Shown here: one piece after another, positions 1-32,067 of the stretch | How the letters are laid out: every line of letters begins with the position of its first letter | Numbering within the stretch: the stretch's first letter is position 1 | NCBI GenBank assembly: GCA_947302535.1 | Contig: CAMYVX010000013.1 | Location: forward strand, 1-32,230 | Source of the DNA: an uncultured Caryophanales bacterium | Lineage (GTDB): Bacteria > Bacillota_I > Bacilli_A > RFN20 > CAG-826 | Reading direction: 5' to 3' | Length of the DNA: 32,230 nt | Program-made: the position numbers and the translations under genes | Notes under the pieces: generated by a model | The model's database searches: none | Told to the model about the DNA's origin: nothing | Seen by the model: the letters and a program-made list of their open reading frames with translations, nothing else

Positions 1-441
1 TTTATCCATTATGAAATATCTAACTGGGCTAAAGAAGGCTATATGGGCGAGCATAATCTTACTTATTGGAGAAATAATCATTACTATGGGGTAGGCTTAT
101 CGGCTTCTGGCTATATTGGTAATGTAAGATACACAAATACGAAAAGTATCAGTGAATACAATAAGGGTGTAAATAAACTTGAAAAAGAAGAATTGACATT
201 AAAGGATGAGAAGATTTATCAAATCATTTTGAATCTAAGAACTATTGAAGGTTTAGATTTAAAACTATATGAAGGAAAATATCATGAAGATTTCTATACT
301 ACATTTAAAGAAATATTAGATAAATTCATCCAGGAAAAATATTTAATCTATAACCGAGATAAAAATATTATCTATCCAACATATCAAGGGATGATGATTC
401 TTGATAATTTATTGATTAAGATAATGGAAAAGATTTCCTAA
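1..441 (+). CDS. hemW: HemW-type radical SAM protein, C-terminal fragment
   Basis: Partial gene: the reading frame is open from base 1 and the true start lies outside the window. The visible 146 residues contain HYEISNWAKEGY near the beginning, then HNLTYWRNNHYYGVG and a GYIGNVRYTN segment, which match the C-terminal half of HemW (oxygen-independent coproporphyrinogen III oxidase-like, now regarded as a heme chaperone). The final part resembles the winged-helix-like HemW C-terminal domain (YLIYNRDKNIIYPTYQG, then a terminal helix). The radical SAM CxxxCxxC motif would be upstream and cannot be seen, so function is inferred from the tail. hemW directly upstream of hrcA is a common Firmicutes arrangement, which supports the call. 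A hairpin follows the stop, separating it from the heat-shock operon. Confidence 0.85.
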   Translation, partial: FIHYEISNWAKEGYMGEHNLTYWRNNHYYGVGLSASGYIGNVRYTNTKSISEYNKGVNKLEKEELTLKDEKIYQIILNLRTIEGLDLKLYEGKYHEDFYTTFKEILDKFIQEKYLIYNRDKNIIYPTYQGMMILDNLLIKIMEKIS

Positions 442-467
442 TAAAAACATCTTATTGAAGCTAGATT

Positions 468-495
468 AACATGGTGAAAAATCATGTTTTTCTTT
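468..495 (+). terminator. Rho-independent terminator after hemW
   Basis: AACATG (468-473) pairs with CATGTT (483-488) around a 9-nt loop and runs directly into a T-rich tract (487-495). The stem is short and AT-rich. An alternative longer pairing of AAAACAT (444-450) with ATGTTTT (484-490) is also possible. It lies between hemW and the hrcA promoter, where a terminator is expected. Confidence 0.6.
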
Positions 496-4116: not shown

Positions 4117-5247
4117 ATGGCAAATAAAGCTGATTATTATGAAACGCTAGGCGTCAAAAAGAACGCGAGCAAAGATGAAATCAAAAGTGCTTATCGTAAA
4201 TTAGCCAAAAAATATCATCCAGATAATAAAGAAACTGGTAACGAAGCCAAATTTAAAGAAGTACAAGAAGCTTACGATATTCTTTATGATGATCAAAAGC
4301 GTGCGGCTTATGACCAATTTGGTCACGCTGCCTTTGAACAAACTGGTGGTGGTGCTGGTGGTAATCCTTTCCAAGGTGGCTTCTCTGGTTTCTCCGATAT
4401 GGGCGATCTTGGCGATATCTTCTCTTCTTTCTTTGGTGGAGGAGCAAGAAGAAATGCGAATCCTAATGGCCCGCAACGTGGCGATGATGATTTAATGAGA
4501 GCCCGCATTGATTTTATAGATGCGGTCAATGGAAAAGAAATTACAATATCTCTAGATATTGATGAAACATGTAGCCATTGTCATGGGACTGGAGCCGAAA
4601 CTCCTAATGATATTCATACCTGTTCCCACTGTTCTGGAAGAGGCTTTATTAATACGCAAAAAAGAACTTTATTTGGTGTCATGAATGCACAAGAGACTTG
4701 TCCTTATTGTGGTGGTAGTGGCAAAATTGTTGACCATAAATGTTCTTCTTGTGGAGGAAAAGGATACACCCGCAAAAAGAAAGACATTACCGTTAAGATT
4801 CCTGCAGGTATCAATAACGGACAACAAATCCGTGTTTCTGGAATGGGTGGAAGAGGCCTTAATGGAGGCCCTAATGGCGACTTATATGTGGAGATTGCTA
4901 TTAAAGAACATTCATATTTCAAAAGAGACGGCAATGATATCCATATCGAAGTCCCACTCGACTTTGTCGATGCTATCTTAGGAACAACCATTGAAGTTCC
5001 AACAGTGTATGGCGAATATAATGTTACTGTTCCAAGCGGAACTCAACCTGGTCAAATCTTAAGAATGAAGGGCCAAGGCATTAAAGATTTAAGAAGCGGT
5101 AAGCCTGGTGATCAATACGTTCATCTATTAATCAAGATGCCTACTTCCTTAAGCAAAGAACAGAAACAAGCGTTAGAGAATTTCAAGAGTGCCAGTAAAC
5201 CAAGCGATTCATTCTTCTCAAAATTCAAAAAAGCTTTCAAAAAATAA
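4117..5247 (+). CDS. dnaJ: Chaperone protein DnaJ (Hsp40)
   Basis: DnaJ stimulates the ATPase of DnaK and delivers substrates to it. The order of domains is complete for a type I DnaJ of 376 residues: a J-domain with HPD at residues 34-36; a Gly/Phe-rich linker at about 76-109; a zinc-binding domain with four CxxCxGxG-type repeats at about 152-216 ([32 protein letters not shown]); and the C-terminal beta-sandwich peptide-binding domains. A Shine-Dalgarno-like AAAGGA precedes the ATG. It is the last gene of the heat-shock operon, set off from dnaK by a strong hairpin and followed by a terminator. Confidence 0.98.
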
Positions 5248-5275
5248 GTCACTTAAAGTGACTTTTTCTTTTTCT
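5246..5275 (+). terminator. Rho-independent terminator after dnaJ
   Basis: AAGTCAC (5246-5252) and GTGACTT (5258-5264) form a 7-bp stem around TTAAA, followed by a T-rich tract (5263-5273). The stem begins within the dnaJ stop codon. It closes the heat-shock operon. Confidence 0.88.
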
Positions 5276-5318: not shown

Positions 5319-5347
5319 GCCTCTTACAAATATTAGGAGGCCTTTTT
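5319..5347 (+). promoter_or_regulatory. Hairpin that would sequester the ribosome binding site of the C39 gene
   Basis: GCCTC (5319-5323) is complementary to GAGGC (5337-5341), and the 3' arm contains most of the Shine-Dalgarno AGGAGG (5335-5340). Five T residues (5343-5347) follow directly before the ATG at 5348, so the element also has the outline of a terminator whose U-tract abuts the start codon. Translational or attenuation control is inferred. The stem is only 5 bp. Confidence 0.5.
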
Positions 5348-6550
5348 ATGAAATTTGTCGCACAACTATTCGAGAATGACTGTGGCATTGCTTGCTTAAA
5401 AATGATGCTTATTGAAGTTAATAAGGACAAGAATTACTGTTATTTACCATTTAAAGAAAAGAAAGGCAATTATTCTTTTCAAGAGATTAGAAACCTGGCT
5501 CATGAACATGGATTAAACCTTGTTGGGTTTCAAGTAAGAGATAAAGAGGAGATATTTCATAATGATACATTCCCCATTATGGTTTCTTTAGAACTTATGG
5601 AAGGAAATAAACACGCAGTCGTTATTGAAAAAATTAAAAAGAAACGTTTATTAATACTTGATCCCGCAAGTGGCAAAAGATGGATGAAGAAGAAAGATTT
5701 TCTTTCTTTATTTGATGGAAACGGGATGTTAATAGAAAAATCTTCGTACACTAAATGCCCTTATTCATTCCCTTATACTAATCCATATAAAGTTATCATC
5801 CCTTCTTTATTACAAATGCTTTCAGCATGCTCTTTGATCCTTGGGATACGTTATATAGAACAAGATGCTCTAGTTATTCTTCCTATCATCTTCTTCTCTT
5901 TAGCGGCGATAGGGGAGATTATCACAAAGAGTATTTTGTTCTCGCAAATGAAAAGGCTAGATACATTAATCTTACAAACGACATATGTTGATAAAACTCA
6001 ACGCCTAGAGTTCTTAAAACGATATGAAGGCTTTAAACAAAGTGAAGTAGTGCACCCAGTTAAATTCTTCACCTCCTTCATTATTGCTTTTGTCTTTTGC
6101 TTTGTTTTACTTTTAAATGGCGTGAACAACATTTTCTTAATACTTTTAACTATGTTAATCGTGCTTATTGATGCTTTTTTAATTTCTCCTTTACTTGATA
6201 AAAATAAAAGCAAATTAGAATTAATTCAAAGACGAGCGTTGTTAGAAAGTAATAACCAAAGGTTCATTAATCAAAGTTTTAATTTAGTAAAGAAGACATA
6301 TAGCTATGGAAAGCTACTTTTATTAAGAAAGTATGCCTATATGCTTATCATTCTTTTCTCTATTATCTTGATGATGATTAATTCTCATATCGTCAGTGTT
6401 CCTTATGTTGTTTGCTATTTCGCTATGACATATGCCTTATTAGAAAACTTAATCCCTATCTTCTCTTATAGTCAAATTAACTATCATCACGAGATTAATA
6501 AATGTAAATTCTTTAACATAATTCATCAAAATGATGAAATCAGGAAGTAA
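5348..6550 (+). CDS. C39-peptidase-domain membrane protein without an ABC ATPase
   Basis: The first ~130 residues resemble the C39 peptidase domain that cleaves double-glycine leader peptides in bacteriocin exporters: Gln6 (oxyanion), Cys12 in NDCGIACLKMM, His89 in NKHAVVI and Asp105 in LILDPASGKRW all fall where the catalytic residues should be. Residues ~149-371 hold six hydrophobic segments (about 149-168, 174-195, 240-258, 261-283, 329-345, 349-371), the number in an ABC exporter membrane domain. The protein stops at 400 residues with no Walker A, signature or Walker B motif, and no ATPase gene is adjacent. AGGAGG lies 7 nt before the ATG. No GG-leader peptide gene is visible nearby. It could be a membrane protease, a half-exporter needing a separate ATPase, or a decayed exporter. 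All four catalytic positions are kept, which argues against simple decay. Confidence 0.8.
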   Translation: MKFVAQLFENDCGIACLKMMLIEVNKDKNYCYLPFKEKKGNYSFQEIRNLAHEHGLNLVGFQVRDKEEIFHNDTFPIMVSLELMEGNKHAVVIEKIKKKRLLILDPASGKRWMKKKDFLSLFDGNGMLIEKSSYTKCPYSFPYTNPYKVIIPSLLQMLSACSLILGIRYIEQDALVILPIIFFSLAAIGEIITKSILFSQMKRLDTLILQTTYVDKTQRLEFLKRYEGFKQSEVVHPVKFFTSFIIAFVFCFVLLLNGVNNIFLILLTMLIVLIDAFLISPLLDKNKSKLELIQRRALLESNNQRFINQSFNLVKKTYSYGKLLLLRKYAYMLIILFSIILMMINSHIVSVPYVVCYFAMTYALLENLIPIFSYSQINYHHEINKCKFFNIIHQNDEIRK

Positions 6551-6571: not shown

Positions 6572-7024
6572 ATGGAATTAGATTTTGTTTCTTTATCCAA
6601 AGAATTTGAGAAATACGAAACTATTTATGATTCTTTATTTAAAAAAACTATCTCTCATTTAGGTATTAAATGTGATCCGGTTGTGTCAGTTAGTATTGTT
6701 GATAACGAATTTATTCATAAAATGAATAATGACTATCGTCATATTGATAGGCCCACTGATGTTATCTCATTTGCCTTTTTAGATAACGAAGAAAATAAAG
6801 ACAAAATCTTATCCTCTCCTGGTATTGTGATACTTGGTGATATTTATATTTCTTATGAAAAGGCTATTTCTCAAGCCGAAGAATATCATCATTCTATAGA
6901 AAGAGAATTCTCATTCTTATTCGTTCATGGTCTTTTACATCTATTAGGCTATGACCATATGAAAAAAGAAGATGAAGATGTCATGTTTGCTCTCCAGGAT
7001 GAGATTTTAGGAAAGAAGGATTAA
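6572..7024 (+). CDS. ybeY: Endoribonuclease YbeY (rRNA maturation)
   Basis: YbeY is a zinc-dependent endoribonuclease active in 16S rRNA 3'-end maturation and ribosome quality control. The family motif HGxLHLxGYDH is present as HGLLHLLGYDH, giving zinc ligands His119, His123 and His129. The upstream RPTDVISFAF (60-69) is also characteristic. At 150 residues the length is normal. No Shine-Dalgarno sequence stands before the ATG. Instead an extended -10-like element ends 9 nt upstream. It leads a tight plus-strand run (ybeY-cdd-era-recO): cdd begins 2 nt after its stop, and the ybeY-cdd-era order is common in Firmicutes. Confidence 0.95.
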   Translation: MELDFVSLSKEFEKYETIYDSLFKKTISHLGIKCDPVVSVSIVDNEFIHKMNNDYRHIDRPTDVISFAFLDNEENKDKILSSPGIVILGDIYISYEKAISQAEEYHHSIEREFSFLFVHGLLHLLGYDHMKKEDEDVMFALQDEILGKKD

Positions 7025-7026
7025 TT

Positions 7027-7428
7027 ATGAACAAAAAAGAATTAGTAAATAAGGCTATTGAAGCAAGAAAATTATCATATTCACCTTATTCTCATTTTGC
7101 AGTTGGGGCGGTTGTGTTAACCAAAAAAGGAGAAATCTTTGTTGGAGCAAACATTGAAAATTCTGCTTATCCACTTTGTATGTGTGCAGAAAGAAACGCT
7201 TTATATAACGCCTATATGCATGGATGCAAAAAGGAAGATTTAGTGGCTCTAGCTTTAGCTGCGGACACTGATGGACCATGTTCTCCATGCGGAGCATGTC
7301 GTCAAGTTATTAGTGAACTCTTCCCAAAAGATGCGCCTATTTATATGGGTAACTTAAAGGGCGAGATTCAAGAAACTAATATCTTGGAATTATTACCATT
7401 TGCTTTTAGTGAGGATGATTTAAAATAA
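7027..7428 (+). CDS. cdd: Cytidine deaminase
   Basis: Deaminates cytidine and deoxycytidine to uridine and deoxyuridine in pyrimidine salvage. The 133-residue protein has the zinc-dependent deaminase motifs CAE (Cys53-Glu55, in CMCAERNA) and PCGAC (Cys88, Cys91), so the three zinc-ligand cysteines and the proton-shuttle glutamate are present. The N-terminal ARKLSYSPYSHFAVGA and the NIENSAYPL segment are typical of homotetrameric Cdd. AAGGA lies before the ATG. Its stop codon overlaps the era start (TAATG). Confidence 0.97.
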   Translation: MNKKELVNKAIEARKLSYSPYSHFAVGAVVLTKKGEIFVGANIENSAYPLCMCAERNALYNAYMHGCKKEDLVALALAADTDGPCSPCGACRQVISELFPKDAPIYMGNLKGEIQETNILELLPFAFSEDDLK

Positions 7429-8315
7429 TGAAATCCGGATTCGTGGCGATTTTAGGTAGACCCAATGTTGGTAAATCCACGCTTTTAAATGCGATTATCA
7501 ATCAAAAGGTTTCTATTGTTACTGATAAAAGTCAGACAACAAGAAACAATATCCGTGGCATTTATAATAGTGAAGACGCTCAGATTATCTTTTTAGACAC
7601 TCCAGGAATTCATAAGCCTAGGCAAAAGCTTGGCATTGAAATGAACTCTATGGCTTATAGTGCCGCTCATGAAGTGGATGTCGCTATTTTAGTGGTGGAT
7701 GCTTCAAAACCTTTTGGAGTGGGCGATAATTATCTACTAGAACACCTTGATATCCATGATGATAAATTAATTATTTTATTTAATAAAATAGATTTAGCAA
7801 GAATCGATAAAGTGGAAGCTTTAAAAGCGGAATATCGTAAAACCTTTAATAAAGCTTTATTCATTGATACAGTGGCTAGTGAAGGCTTCAATGTTGATGA
7901 AGTCATTAAAGCTGTTATTTCTTTGTTAGAAGAAGGCCCAAGATATTATCCAGTGGACGCTGTTACTGATAAAGATGAAATCTTCCAGATTAAAGAAATC
8001 ATTCGTGAAAAAGTTTTAAAAACTTTAAAAGATGAAGTACCTCATTCTATCGCCGTCTATATGGAAGATATTGCTTGGGAAGAAAGCCCCATCCATATTA
8101 GAGCGACTTTAATCGTGGAAAAAGATAGTCAAAAAGGTATTGTCATTGGGGCTAATGGAAAAAGAATTAAATATATTGGTTCTTTAGCAAGAAAAGATAT
8201 TGAAAGGCTTCTTCATAAACATGTTTACCTAGAACTATTTGTTAAAGTACAAGAGGACTGGAGAAACGATAATTCTTCTTTAGAAGAATATGGATATAAA
8301 TACAAAAAGAATTAA
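7428..8315 (+). CDS. era: GTPase Era
   Basis: Era is an essential GTPase that binds the 3' end of 16S rRNA during 30S assembly. Motifs in the 295 residues are G1 GRPNVGKST (10-18), the switch region KSQTTRNNIRG, G3 DTPG (57-60), G4 NKID (119-122), and a C-terminal KH domain with GANGKRIK (241-248). The ATG overlaps the cdd stop codon, so translation is probably coupled. Its placement with ybeY, another 16S maturation factor, and recO is conserved in related genomes. Confidence 0.98.
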   Translation: MKSGFVAILGRPNVGKSTLLNAIINQKVSIVTDKSQTTRNNIRGIYNSEDAQIIFLDTPGIHKPRQKLGIEMNSMAYSAAHEVDVAILVVDASKPFGVGDNYLLEHLDIHDDKLIILFNKIDLARIDKVEALKAEYRKTFNKALFIDTVASEGFNVDEVIKAVISLLEEGPRYYPVDAVTDKDEIFQIKEIIREKVLKTLKDEVPHSIAVYMEDIAWEESPIHIRATLIVEKDSQKGIVIGANGKRIKYIGSLARKDIERLLHKHVYLELFVKVQEDWRNDNSSLEEYGYKYKKN

Positions 8316-17996: not shown

Positions 17997-18575
17997 ATGA
18001 TTATTCATAATCTCAAAAGACTAGTGCTTCTATCTTCTTTGCTTTTTTCGTCATTGAGCATTGTTTCTTGTGGCAGCTCTTCCTCTTCTTCTCCTAGAAG
18101 AGAACATCGCTTGTCGTGGCGGTTATATAAATACGTCCCTAAGAACAAATATATCACTGCAATAAAAGATGAATATGATTTTGCTTTTATGGTTAGTTGC
18201 AACTATGTTGATAACGGTGATTACTCATACACAATTGAGGGGGAAATAGAATTATTCAATTACACAACAGACATTGATACTCTGCATAGTCTTTTACTAG
18301 AAGAACATATCTTTGGTATCGGTAAAGCTTTGTATGGCAATCATTTTGTTTATGACTACGACAATCCTCTTATCTTTACTGAAACGGCAAATTTAGAAGA
18401 ATTAACCCTTAGTTTCTCTTTAAAATGGTACGATGTTCATTTTGAATTATTTTTGGATTACTACTATATATTCTTCTCTTTGATAGAATCGGAAGCAACT
18501 GAAAACTTTAATAATAAATTCTATTACTATTTCTCGATAAAAGACTATTCAGTTGATAAAGGAGAAGCATCATGA
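17997..18575 (+). CDS. Putative lipoprotein, cassette gene 1
   Basis: Not a family I recognise. Residues 1-24 form a lipoprotein signal peptide (basic HNLKR, hydrophobic core, lipobox IVSC) with Cys25 as the lipidated residue, followed by a poly-serine linker (CGSSSSSS). The mature part, about 168 residues, is rich in Tyr, Phe, Asp and Glu with alternating beta-like pattern and no enzyme motif. It resembles the third cassette gene in layout: Cys plus Ser run, a FxVS strand, then an NYxxDxDTL-type segment (FNYTTDIDTL here, MNYDNDNTL there). Distant paralogy is possible. Its TGA stop, the only TGA stop in the window, overlaps the protease ATG (ATGA), so the two are coupled. Confidence 0.75.
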   Translation: MIIHNLKRLVLLSSLLFSSLSIVSCGSSSSSSPRREHRLSWRLYKYVPKNKYITAIKDEYDFAFMVSCNYVDNGDYSYTIEGEIELFNYTTDIDTLHSLLLEEHIFGIGKALYGNHFVYDYDNPLIFTETANLEELTLSFSLKWYDVHFELFLDYYYIFFSLIESEATENFNNKFYYYFSIKDYSVDKGEAS

Positions 18576-19915
18576 AATTATTACTTTGCCTTAATGTCCT
18601 CTACATAGTTTCTTTGCTTAATAGTAGTCTATATTTAAACAAAAACATTATTTCTTCTTCTCTTGATAACAATAAAACAATCATCAAATCTAGAAAAGAG
18701 ATTGGAGAAGATGAAGATTATATAACTTTATTAAGAAATAATTATCAAAAATTAATTGATGCTTATAATGAAGCTTCGAAAGATAAATTATTAGCCACTG
18801 AACTTCTAGTTTGTCGTAAGATGAATAATGAAGATGACTTATATTATCTAGGTTTCGATAAAGGCTTTGCTATTGTCGATTCCAATAAAACAGTAGTGGA
18901 AGTTACAAATCGTGATTACACCTATAAAGATGATTTAAATGATTACGATGAAATCTTTTATAGAGGCAATACATTTTATTACAAAAAAGACGATGAACTC
19001 ATAGAGCTTATTGATGATAGAGTTTATACAATTAAAACATCAAGTGCAGAAGGTTCGCAAAGTAATGGCGTCAGTCATAACGGCCAAATTAGGCCTGGTG
19101 ACGGCACGATTTATGATTTAGATGATTATATTGATGATAGATATGCTGGATTTACAGTTACAAATGTTTTTTCATCTTGCCTCAACAATACAATGAATGT
19201 ATATCAGTTTGATACAAGCTTTTATCTCAATAATGCAGGCGGAAGCGAATGCAATTGCGTTTTAAACGCTACTTACTCTATGTTGCTTCACATGGGTATA
19301 AATGGATGGGCCCCTACATTTTATTATGGTGATACATATATTGACTGTTTAGATGACATTAGCGACGATCCACATTACCATGATCTCGTTGAAATTGGAA
19401 ACTGGTCCGTCAATTACCGTCAAAGAATCGGCACTGAATGGCACGGATATAACTGTTTGGAAAAAATTCCTGGTTTGTATAATCACATTAGAAACCGCGC
19501 ACTTGAATATTGTTACGATGAGGGCAGCGATTTCCAATTTTTAAGATCAATGGATTTGATTAGTTATGTCGATGGTTTCTATAATTATCAAATAACTACA
19601 GGTTTTTGTAGCGATACAGGAGTAGTGAAAAATCGAATAAATGATGAAATGTCTAGTTTTATCGGGGTATCCGGATCTGAAACATATGGCAATCATGCTA
19701 TGTGTGTAGTTGGCTATGAAACATATAATTTTGGGATTAGCGGCTTTTTTAATTTTTCTTTACCCAGAATCTTCTTTAGAGTTGATGATGGATTTTCTAA
19801 CAAAATAGATGAAGGTCAAATGTGGACAGGTCCTATATTTTTCGATCCTTATTATTCTGATTCATTTATTTTTGTTGTCGCTAGCGAAAACATTGTCGAT
19901 TTATCTCTTTGTTAG
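18572..19915 (+). CDS. Secreted papain-like (C39-like/C10-like) cysteine protease
   Basis: A 447-residue exported protein. Residues 1-20 look like a signal peptide. Residues ~50-155 resemble the propeptide of streptopain-like enzymes (YYLGFDKGFAIVDSNKTVVE). A papain-like catalytic core runs from ~200 to the end. The likely nucleophile is Cys229 in ECNCVLNATYSMLLHMG, the likely histidine is His375 in GNHAMCVVGYE, and Asp405/Asp406 in FRVDDGF stands where papain-like enzymes keep the third residue. The usual oxyanion Gln ahead of the Cys is not evident. The mature region has many cysteines. AAGGAG precedes the ATG, which overlaps the upstream lipoprotein stop. The substrate is unknown. The cysteine protease-fold call is moderate, and export is well supported. 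Confidence 0.7.
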   Translation: MKLLLCLNVLYIVSLLNSSLYLNKNIISSSLDNNKTIIKSRKEIGEDEDYITLLRNNYQKLIDAYNEASKDKLLATELLVCRKMNNEDDLYYLGFDKGFAIVDSNKTVVEVTNRDYTYKDDLNDYDEIFYRGNTFYYKKDDELIELIDDRVYTIKTSSAEGSQSNGVSHNGQIRPGDGTIYDLDDYIDDRYAGFTVTNVFSSCLNNTMNVYQFDTSFYLNNAGGSECNCVLNATYSMLLHMGINGWAPTFYYGDTYIDCLDDISDDPHYHDLVEIGNWSVNYRQRIGTEWHGYNCLEKIPGLYNHIRNRALEYCYDEGSDFQFLRSMDLISYVDGFYNYQITTGFCSDTGVVKNRINDEMSSFIGVSGSETYGNHAMCVVGYETYNFGISGFFNFSLPRIFFRVDDGFSNKIDEGQMWTGPIFFDPYYSDSFIFVVASENIVDLSLC

Positions 19916-31428: not shown

Positions 31429-31445
31429 TACTAATTATCTACTAA
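31429..31445 (-). repeat. Inverted copy of the TTAGTA-type 17-nt repeat
   Basis: On the minus strand this reads as two TTAGTA hexamers 11 nt apart and is identical over 17 bases to 28004-28020. It covers the stop codon of the MazF-like gene, so part of it is coding. Confidence 0.5.
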
Positions 31446-32067
31446 TATTTTTGCCATCTTCCTCGTCGCCATTCTTGACCAGGAAGCTAACATATTTTAG
31501 AAGTATCATTTCTAACTGAGCTTTTGTTAACCTCAAAACGTTTGGCGTACTTTCTTCCTCTAGCGTCTCTTCATCATCTTCATAGATAGAACATTCTGGT
31601 CTTTTTAAACCGATTAAGTTTTTTCTTTGAATTCTAAATTTGTCAATTGTTCTTATTTGGTTTACGACTGCTAATGTTTCTCTTTCTTTGGAGAGATCTT
31701 CCACTATTCCTATGTTTACATCGCTTCTTCGATGCCCTCCTGTATGATTTGTCTTTAGTGGACAGACTAAGACAAGAGGATTAAAAGGTTTTGAATCGAC
31801 TAAAACAACAGCGTAATGCCTATTTGAGAATTCGCTATTAATACCTATGCCAAAGTCGACCTCATATATTTCTCCTTTTTTCAAGTCGTAACGTAATTCG
31901 TATACCGATGACACATCGATATATTCAATCATCTTTTTAAGCCACGTTAGCTGATTGACTACACCGACGTTTTGTAAATGCTTATTTCCTAACGAAGGGT
32001 AGCCTTCAGTAGGTTTGGTTTTTCGAAAATAATAAGCAAATTTAATTGAATTTTTATCTTCTTCCAT
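31435..32067 (-). CDS. MazF/PemK-family protein with N- and C-terminal extensions
   Basis: The core, residues ~62-155, has the MazF pattern: KKGEIYEVDFG (63-73), SEFSNRHYAVVLV (78-90), LVCPLKTN, and VNQIRTIDKFRI (135-146), close to the DQIRT signature of this endoribonuclease toxin family. Typical MazF is ~115 residues. This protein has 210, with a ~60-residue N-terminal helical extension and a ~55-residue acidic plus helical tail. The usual RP after the first motif reads RH. No antitoxin gene is visible between its start and the window edge, or downstream. A solitary toxin, a regulator, or a toxin with built-in control are all possible. GGAGG precedes the ATG. Confidence 0.8.
   Translation of the reverse strand: MEEDKNSIKFAYYFRKTKPTEGYPSLGNKHLQNVGVVNQLTWLKKMIEYIDVSSVYELRYDLKKGEIYEVDFGIGINSEFSNRHYAVVLVDSKPFNPLVLVCPLKTNHTGGHRRSDVNIGIVEDLSKERETLAVVNQIRTIDKFRIQRKNLIGLKRPECSIYEDDEETLEEESTPNVLRLTKAQLEMILLKYVSFLVKNGDEEDGKNISR

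Follow-up and report, generated by a model that had tools for sequence, protein, structure and literature searches.

C39 peptidase domains are usually viewed as the front end of exporters for bacteriocins and pheromones. In PCAT1 the protease touches the membrane channel as long as no nucleotide is bound and is disengaged by ATP binding; this contact with the membrane domain enhances proteolysis, and C39 domains are also active in isolation (excerpts of PMC6363468). For the C39 counterparts of mycoplasmas no peptide cargo is reported in the excerpts of PMC6609329 used here, in which the JCVI-syn3A protein 0401 is given a tentative lipoate role and counts as removable by transposon data. This removability argues against its being essential in that cell.

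The locus described here was found in the window, a stretch of 32,230 nt from contig CAMYVX010000013.1 (C13; assembly GCA_947302535.1) of an uncultured Caryophanales bacterium, whose coordinates are used throughout. The gene, called C39M in the following, lies on the plus strand at 5348..6550, starts with ATG and encodes 400 residues. From its open reading frame, Pfam and AlphaFold2 it consists of a C39 peptidase and a six-helix membrane domain of the ABC exporter type, without the nucleotide-binding domain (NBD). The peptidase covers residues 1-132 (5348..5743, plus strand). Here the curated Pfam profile Peptidase_C39 (PF03412) assigns residues 2-132 to the family with 73.3 bits (E 2.2e-20; cut-off 22), and the predicted fold matches 6mpz, the C39 domain of an AMS/PCAT transporter, with Z 18.0. 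The AlphaFold2 model (23 sequences; mean pLDDT 88.4, pTM 0.77) continues with six long helices between residues 147 and 399 (5786..6544, plus strand), assigned by DSSP to 147-171, 177-211, 216-256, 259-299, 303-346 and 351-399, the last being interrupted at 373. The Pfam membrane domain PF00664 gave no match at E<=1; the type-I exporter fold was recognised through alignment of the model with PCAT1 and other type-I exporters. The whole model (1..400) aligns with PCAT1 10..471 (Z 24.8, 397 residues aligned, rmsd 5.5; Foldseek E 6e-14), and positions 3-300 of the C39M family profile match PCAT1 by sequence (8vp3 residues 35-370, E 4e-14). It follows from the model alignment that the window protein ends where the NBD of PCAT1 begins. 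Hence the architecture given in the initial annotation, a C39 peptidase with six membrane segments that stops at the start of the NBD, was borne out, as was the comparison with PCAT-type exporters proposed there. The C-terminal NBD with Walker A and signature, which characterises PCAT/AMS transporters, is missing. The helices are joined by short turns at 212-215 and 300-302, sites at which exporters have long intracellular loops with coupling helices. The claim of short loops is based on the model and on the difference in span, 400 residues against 462 in PCAT1; a control fold of the full-length relative L138 (pLDDT 69.5) was too poor for loop measurement. (L and G are our working codes for loci and genomes, f1, f2 and so on for families.) Elsewhere in the window, two adjacent open reading frames of 192 and 447 residues (17997-19915) had no Pfam match at E<=0.001, and a PemK/MazF-like domain was seen in a protein of 210 residues, longer than the domain itself, on the minus strand at 31435-32067.

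The four active-site residues claimed in the initial annotation were all present: Gln6 (putative oxyanion residue, 5363..5365) and the catalytic Cys12 (5381..5383), His89 (5612..5614) and Asp105 (5660..5662), all on the plus strand. They are the sole invariant columns in an alignment of the window protein with 28 relatives that are 18-35% identical to it. The mean pairwise identity was 31% in the C39 domain versus 17% in the membrane domain. In total 82 distinct loci were collected, 77 of them without contact to the locus end; 71 of the latter, referred to as uncut copies, span 361-453 aa. Fifteen of the 82 come from named metagenome-assembled genome (MAG) records without an order code and were placed with the window's order on close match. 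All four residues were found in 65 of the 71 uncut copies, Cys in 70, His in 71, Asp in 69, and Cys together with His in 70. The exceptions are L176, which lacks the N-terminus, L193 and L199, in which Gln is replaced, L244, which lacks it, and L202 and L245, in which Asp105 is changed to Phe and Glu, respectively. Gln6 is also absent from all three copies that consist of C39 alone (L201, L238, L241), and Asp is changed in the mycoplasma-type protein L217. As Gln lies 4.3 A from the oxyanion, its loss need not abolish activity (excerpts of PMC6363468). Judged from these alignments the active site is under selection. This supports the initial view that peptidase activity is selected for outside an ABC context: within the order no copy of this gene was seen to carry an NBD, and a failure of Cys and His to be conserved, which would have spoken against that view, was not seen (both kept in 70 of 71).

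A conserved C39 domain does not have to cleave. The C39-like domain of HlyB is a non-cleaving precedent, and a domain that only binds or docks, in a protein with a structural or regulatory role, would agree with the loss of Gln or Asp from some distant copies. It would not need the Cys and His that are retained in 70 of the 71 uncut copies, and we regard this explanation as improbable. Asp205, Lys230, Asn257 and Glu294 are conserved residues of the membrane domain and could reflect a transport or gating role.

The initial annotation proposed to search related genomes for the 400-residue architecture, and it was found at similar length across the order. With the window protein as query, matches at E<=0.01 were obtained in 38 of the 58 genomes searched, which include its own. 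Of the 38 places, 34 fall in frames of 372-453 aa, three are pieces at contig ends and one is a gene of family f2. When the order was searched with a profile, 255 of its 279 genomes gave matches (E<=1e-5), some of them separate full exporters. The 150 places listed from this order-wide search, which had further matches, all have frames of 361-492 aa; five are interrupted by one or two stop codons. The Pfam C39 model found 53 places in 49 of the 58 genomes. A frame above 600 aa was seen in four of the 58 only (G000, G006, G020, G021), each time as a second gene. C39M is present in families f1, f3, f5 and f8, and Walker A was detected in none of the 82 loci and thus in none of the 71 uncut copies. 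The gene is not universal in the order: nine of the 58 genomes had no PF03412 match, four of these being among the 44 genomes that are at least 90% complete. The carriers are uncultured bacteria, many from animal guts, with rumen and faeces among the MAG record titles.

In a class-wide sample 149 of 395 genomes matched. Outside the order the long frames (about 570-760 aa) are full exporters; shorter frames were met at the ends of contigs or where the genome has in-frame TGA. Two sequences from beyond the order seemed at first to be NBD-less, L103 (391 aa) and L148 (473 aa), whose titles point to Bacteroidota. They were rejected, as their ATPase part is encoded in a different frame or follows a masked stretch. 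Among the matches listed in a literature search at the title and abstract level there was no NBD-less C39 membrane protein.

It had been considered that relatives might carry a full-length protein, in which case the gene of the window would be truncated. No such relative was found within the order, but full-length proteins do occur at the same chromosomal place outside of it (see below), which indicates that the NBD was lost long ago and its absence inherited since, and that nothing was cut off recently. Truncation does not account for the gene of the window. A decaying pseudogene or an exporter truncated in the assembly could be suspected from the absence of a domain that is usual for the family and from the one or two stop codons in five of the 150 listed places. 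The similar length at all 150 places, the conserved active site and the presence in four families (f1, f3, f5, f8) make this extremely improbable.

The position of the gene is conserved as well. In the window the next gene, 21 bases downstream, is the endoribonuclease gene ybeY (6572..7024, plus strand; Pfam YbeY 150.7 bits), followed by cdd and era (7027..8315, plus strand), which are conserved downstream genes. Upstream, here and in many relatives, lies dnaJ (4117..5247, plus strand). The names dnaJ, cdd, era and recO were given by reading of the sequence. The initial annotation had placed C39M just downstream of a chaperone operon. This is correct insofar as dnaJ precedes it; however, a terminator-like hairpin (5246..5264, plus strand, consensus scan) comes after dnaJ, and the telling neighbour is ybeY. 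A second hairpin from the consensus scan (5319..5341, plus strand) encloses a Shine-Dalgarno-like AGGAGG directly before the start codon, and translational control is possible at this site.

In the first set of 30 loci (L001-L030) ybeY directly follows in 25, in L030 as a fusion with cdd; it comes after one gene in L009, L017 and L029, was not found at L027, and L028 is cut. Among 23 loci from named MAG records, at least seven of which repeat contigs already counted and are thus not independent, ybeY is directly next in 18 (in L073 as a ybeY-cdd fusion) and follows after one or more genes in L082, L090 and L091; L085 and L092 end too early. It is directly next in the f5 loci L196, L202, L243, L244 and L245. 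In f8 it comes after one gene in L242 and was not seen in the stretch examined of L191 and L246. The fusions (L073:7243-8100 and L030:2717-3574) are single proteins of 286 residues with Pfam matches to both YbeY and Cdd.

The same place is occupied by a C39-ABC exporter in 'code-4' genomes, whose mycoplasma type we inferred from in-frame TGA, matches to NF045998 and genome size. Thirteen of the 28 listed genomes (families f11 and f22) were examined around their C39-ABC gene. In all 13 it lies just before ybeY on the same strand, at a distance of 4-443 bases. Two of the proteins, L211 and L213, are members of NF045998, the Mbov_0121 family, above the cut-off (674 and 682 bits), and L207 and L208 score 131 and 99. 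In eight stretches of f17 with full-length C39-ABC (L203, L204, L221-L226) the linkage is looser: ybeY lies 3.8-4.3 kb downstream in L225 and L226, dnaK and dnaJ lie upstream in L222, and the remaining stretches had no link to ybeY, dnaK or dnaJ within the bases examined. A tree of 43 rows unites the 16 NBD-less proteins in a single clade (100/99), which is joined by the code-4 proteins (99/99) and then by f17 (100/97); the separate exporter of the window's genome and other PCATs fall apart from this group of 27 rows. The tree has long branches and does not tell in which order the NBD-less, f11 and f22 groups split within the 27 rows, and is therefore support and not proof. The synteny is evidence independent of it. 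C39M thus shares both its place before ybeY and its descent with the NF045998 type, which is our own criterion for kinship and not that of the curators. We conclude that C39M is the positional counterpart and the probable orthologue of the ybeY-linked mycoplasma-type C39-ABC exporter, that descent from the Mollicutes C39-ABC (Mbov_0121) type is the best reading, and that a single loss of the ATPase domain probably took place in an ancestor of the order to which the window belongs.

The motor has also decayed elsewhere. Four of the 13 code-4 proteins (L207, L208, L209, L214) have neither Walker A nor signature nor a PF00005 match at E<=1, while their Gln, Cys, His and Asp are intact; the C-terminal part of L207, L208 and L214 can still be identified by hhalign as an NBD (97%, E 6e-11). 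Other members of f11 (L210, L215, L216, L217) keep Walker A. Therefore the motor of the code-4 genomes probably decayed independently of the NBD loss in the order of the window, although the tree is no proof of this. Reduction has gone further in two families. The f2 proteins L235, L236 and L237 (167-171 aa) consist of C39 and one hydrophobic helix only and are encoded directly before ybeY. In f4 (L238, L241, L201) C39 stands alone in frames of 120-132 aa that lack Gln and keep Cys, His and Asp; L241 lies directly before ybeY and L238 two genes before it, and at L201 ybeY was not seen in the stretch examined. Besides, several code-4 and f17 loci have, after the full-length exporter, a small protein (some 115-165 aa) in which a membrane helix can be made out by eye (L210:7801-8157, L211:8102-8545, L213:7526-8029, L223:8025-8435, L225:4452-4865, L226:7109-7576). 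Scans at L210, L222, L223 and L226 gave no Pfam match above cut-off for it, and no such protein was seen after the gene of the window.

Could C39M still be an exporter, powered by a separate NBD protein that binds to its membrane domain? This membrane domain retains the type-I exporter fold, and the window's genome holds 37 ABC_tran places. None of these is on contig C13. A profile search of 117 loci of the order (822 kb, some genes counted repeatedly) found NBD frames at three only: in f8 as the next gene on the opposite strand (L191, L246) and at L238 in a distance of 5.6 kb. The search for an NBD-only partner suggested initially thus had no result on the contig itself and led to ATPases beside C39M in the two f8 loci. 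These (L191:2528-3280, L246:5664-6458) are followed by genes that, by reading, resemble an importer permease and a binding protein. The loops in which exporters carry their coupling helices are tight turns in the window model. The membrane domain is, moreover, the less conserved half and is mostly or wholly lost in f2 and f4. The neighbours in f8 and the removability of 0401 give more weight to the idea of a partner ATPase, and less to the interpretation that we prefer, yet we consider it quite unlikely. The gene next to C39M in L017 (386 aa) had been taken by eye for a decayed NBD and was rejected, Pfam finding no ABC_tran in it and hhalign against an NBD set giving 2.9%; four further loci with its genus code (L187, L188, L189, L206) showed no counterpart.

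Another possibility is that C39M matures GG-leader peptides of its own genome in trans, beside a full-length exporter. The window's genome does contain a full-length C39-ABC exporter, separate from C39M on contig C20, and several proteins with leaders of the ELTDEQLxAISGG type. The initial statement that no ATPase or GG-leader gene is nearby therefore holds for contig C13 and the immediate neighbourhood of the gene, but both are present on other contigs. The GG-leader matches of this genome look like Nif11-type leaders that end in GG. They belong to small proteins with the leader ELLKGL...ELTDEQLxAISGG (L230-L233, on contigs C2, C20, C4 and C3, respectively), whose cores look zinc-ribbon-like by eye except for L231; the latter lies near the exporter. 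One copy lies near a full C39-ABC and radical-SAM-like cluster (L061, L042), and the family is possibly a set of RiPPs with odd cores. TIGR01847 matched above cut-off in seven of the 58 genomes, namely in all four with a full exporter and in G004, G014 and G027. GG-leader matches above cut-off thus occur in 4/4 genomes with a separate exporter versus 3/54 without one (Fisher p 8e-5). In G004, G014 and G027 PF03412 found nothing; G014 nonetheless carries a piece of the window's gene, and no exporter was found in it. Matches above cut-off hence go mainly with the exporter, which has a C39 domain of its own. Of the 49 genomes with C39, 45 have no frame above 600 aa, and none of these had a match above cut-off, with weaker ones in ten. 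We therefore judge maturation in trans to be unlikely. The leaders of the window's genome, the matches in G014 and these ten weaker ones also weigh against the interpretation preferred below. The GG model has 15 positions and is insensitive, having detected three of 14 controls, one of them above cut-off. No GG-leader cargo gene was seen with it beside C39M, and since it is so short and insensitive, C39M genomes may contain further GG substrates beyond its reach.

A role as a substitute for prepilin peptidase was also considered, since the full-length relatives L138 and L221 adjoin genes that look prepilin-like by reading. It was rejected for the C39M family, as neither T2SSF nor A24 was found in the window's genome or in 33 relatives from f1. 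A24 peptidase and T2SSF were both above cut-off in two of the 58 genomes, G054 (L205) and G041 (L180/L183), and G054 is also the source of L245, the C39M copy that has Glu in place of Asp105.

The interpretation we prefer, and consider rather likely, is that C39M is an ATP-independent, membrane-anchored C39 endopeptidase with a cellular substrate, which arose from the ybeY-linked mycoplasma-type C39-ABC exporter by loss of the NBD. That the motor was lost while the peptidase half was kept at the same chromosomal place suggests that these cells and their mycoplasma relatives retain the gene for cutting and not for export. The architecture, the match of the fold, the conservation of the active site, the missing NBD, the synteny and the grouping in the tree are observations; on catalytic activity, dimer, docked state and substrate we draw inferences. 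By analogy with PCAT1, where ATP releases the protease, an exporter without NBD would be a permanently docked peptidase. Its membrane domain, probably as a dimer, would hold the peptidase at the inner membrane face. There an endogenous protein or peptide close to the membrane would be cut behind a GG-like motif, and this would need neither ATP nor export. The substrate of such a permanently docked peptidase would probably be no bacteriocin but a cellular protein shared across the order.

Compared with PCAT1 (PDB 9azl, 6v9z, 4ry2), C39M has the same succession of C39 and type-I exporter membrane domain; it differs by the missing NBD and by the tight turns between helices 2/3 and 4/5, and from peptidase-containing ABC transporters in general by having no cargo gene in sight beside it. 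LahT150 and other isolated C39 domains are similar in that C39 is active without an ABC motor (excerpts of PMC6363468), but they are laboratory constructs and not natural NBD-less proteins. FapD (NF058616) and FilB (NF050078) are natural C39 proteins whose names suggest roles outside ABC transport. Their matches are weak, and the window protein stays far under both cut-offs (24.5 vs 330 and 12.6 vs 475). The Mbov_0121 family (NF045998) is the best NCBIfam match of the window protein (E 3.8e-12, best stretch 9-149), and its members L211 and L213 sit at the same place before ybeY and group with C39M in the tree. With 45.3 bits the window protein remains below the equivalog cut-off of 500 bits; it has no NBD, and no small gene lies between C39M and ybeY.

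The loss of the motor at a fixed place beside core genes is a natural experiment that parts the peptidase from transport. The proposed series of dismantling would run from a live ATPase over a dead ATPase and no ATPase to one membrane helix and finally C39 alone, with active site and chromosomal place unchanged throughout. The existence of the NBD-less lineage speaks against a bacteriocin role of the mycoplasma counterparts, and it makes the function of this gene family in near-minimal cells testable, as a substrate protein should be sought and not a secreted peptide. JCVI-syn3A 0401, compared here by description only, is likewise a Mycoplasma C39-domain protein, and the excerpts of PMC6609329 name no GG-peptide candidate for it. 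Perhaps, though we put this forward tentatively, the ybeY-linked C39 is a conserved cellular peptidase with an expendable motor; 0401 would then be the same peptidase, acting on an endogenous substrate that possibly belongs to YbeY/Era ribosome maturation or to the membrane.
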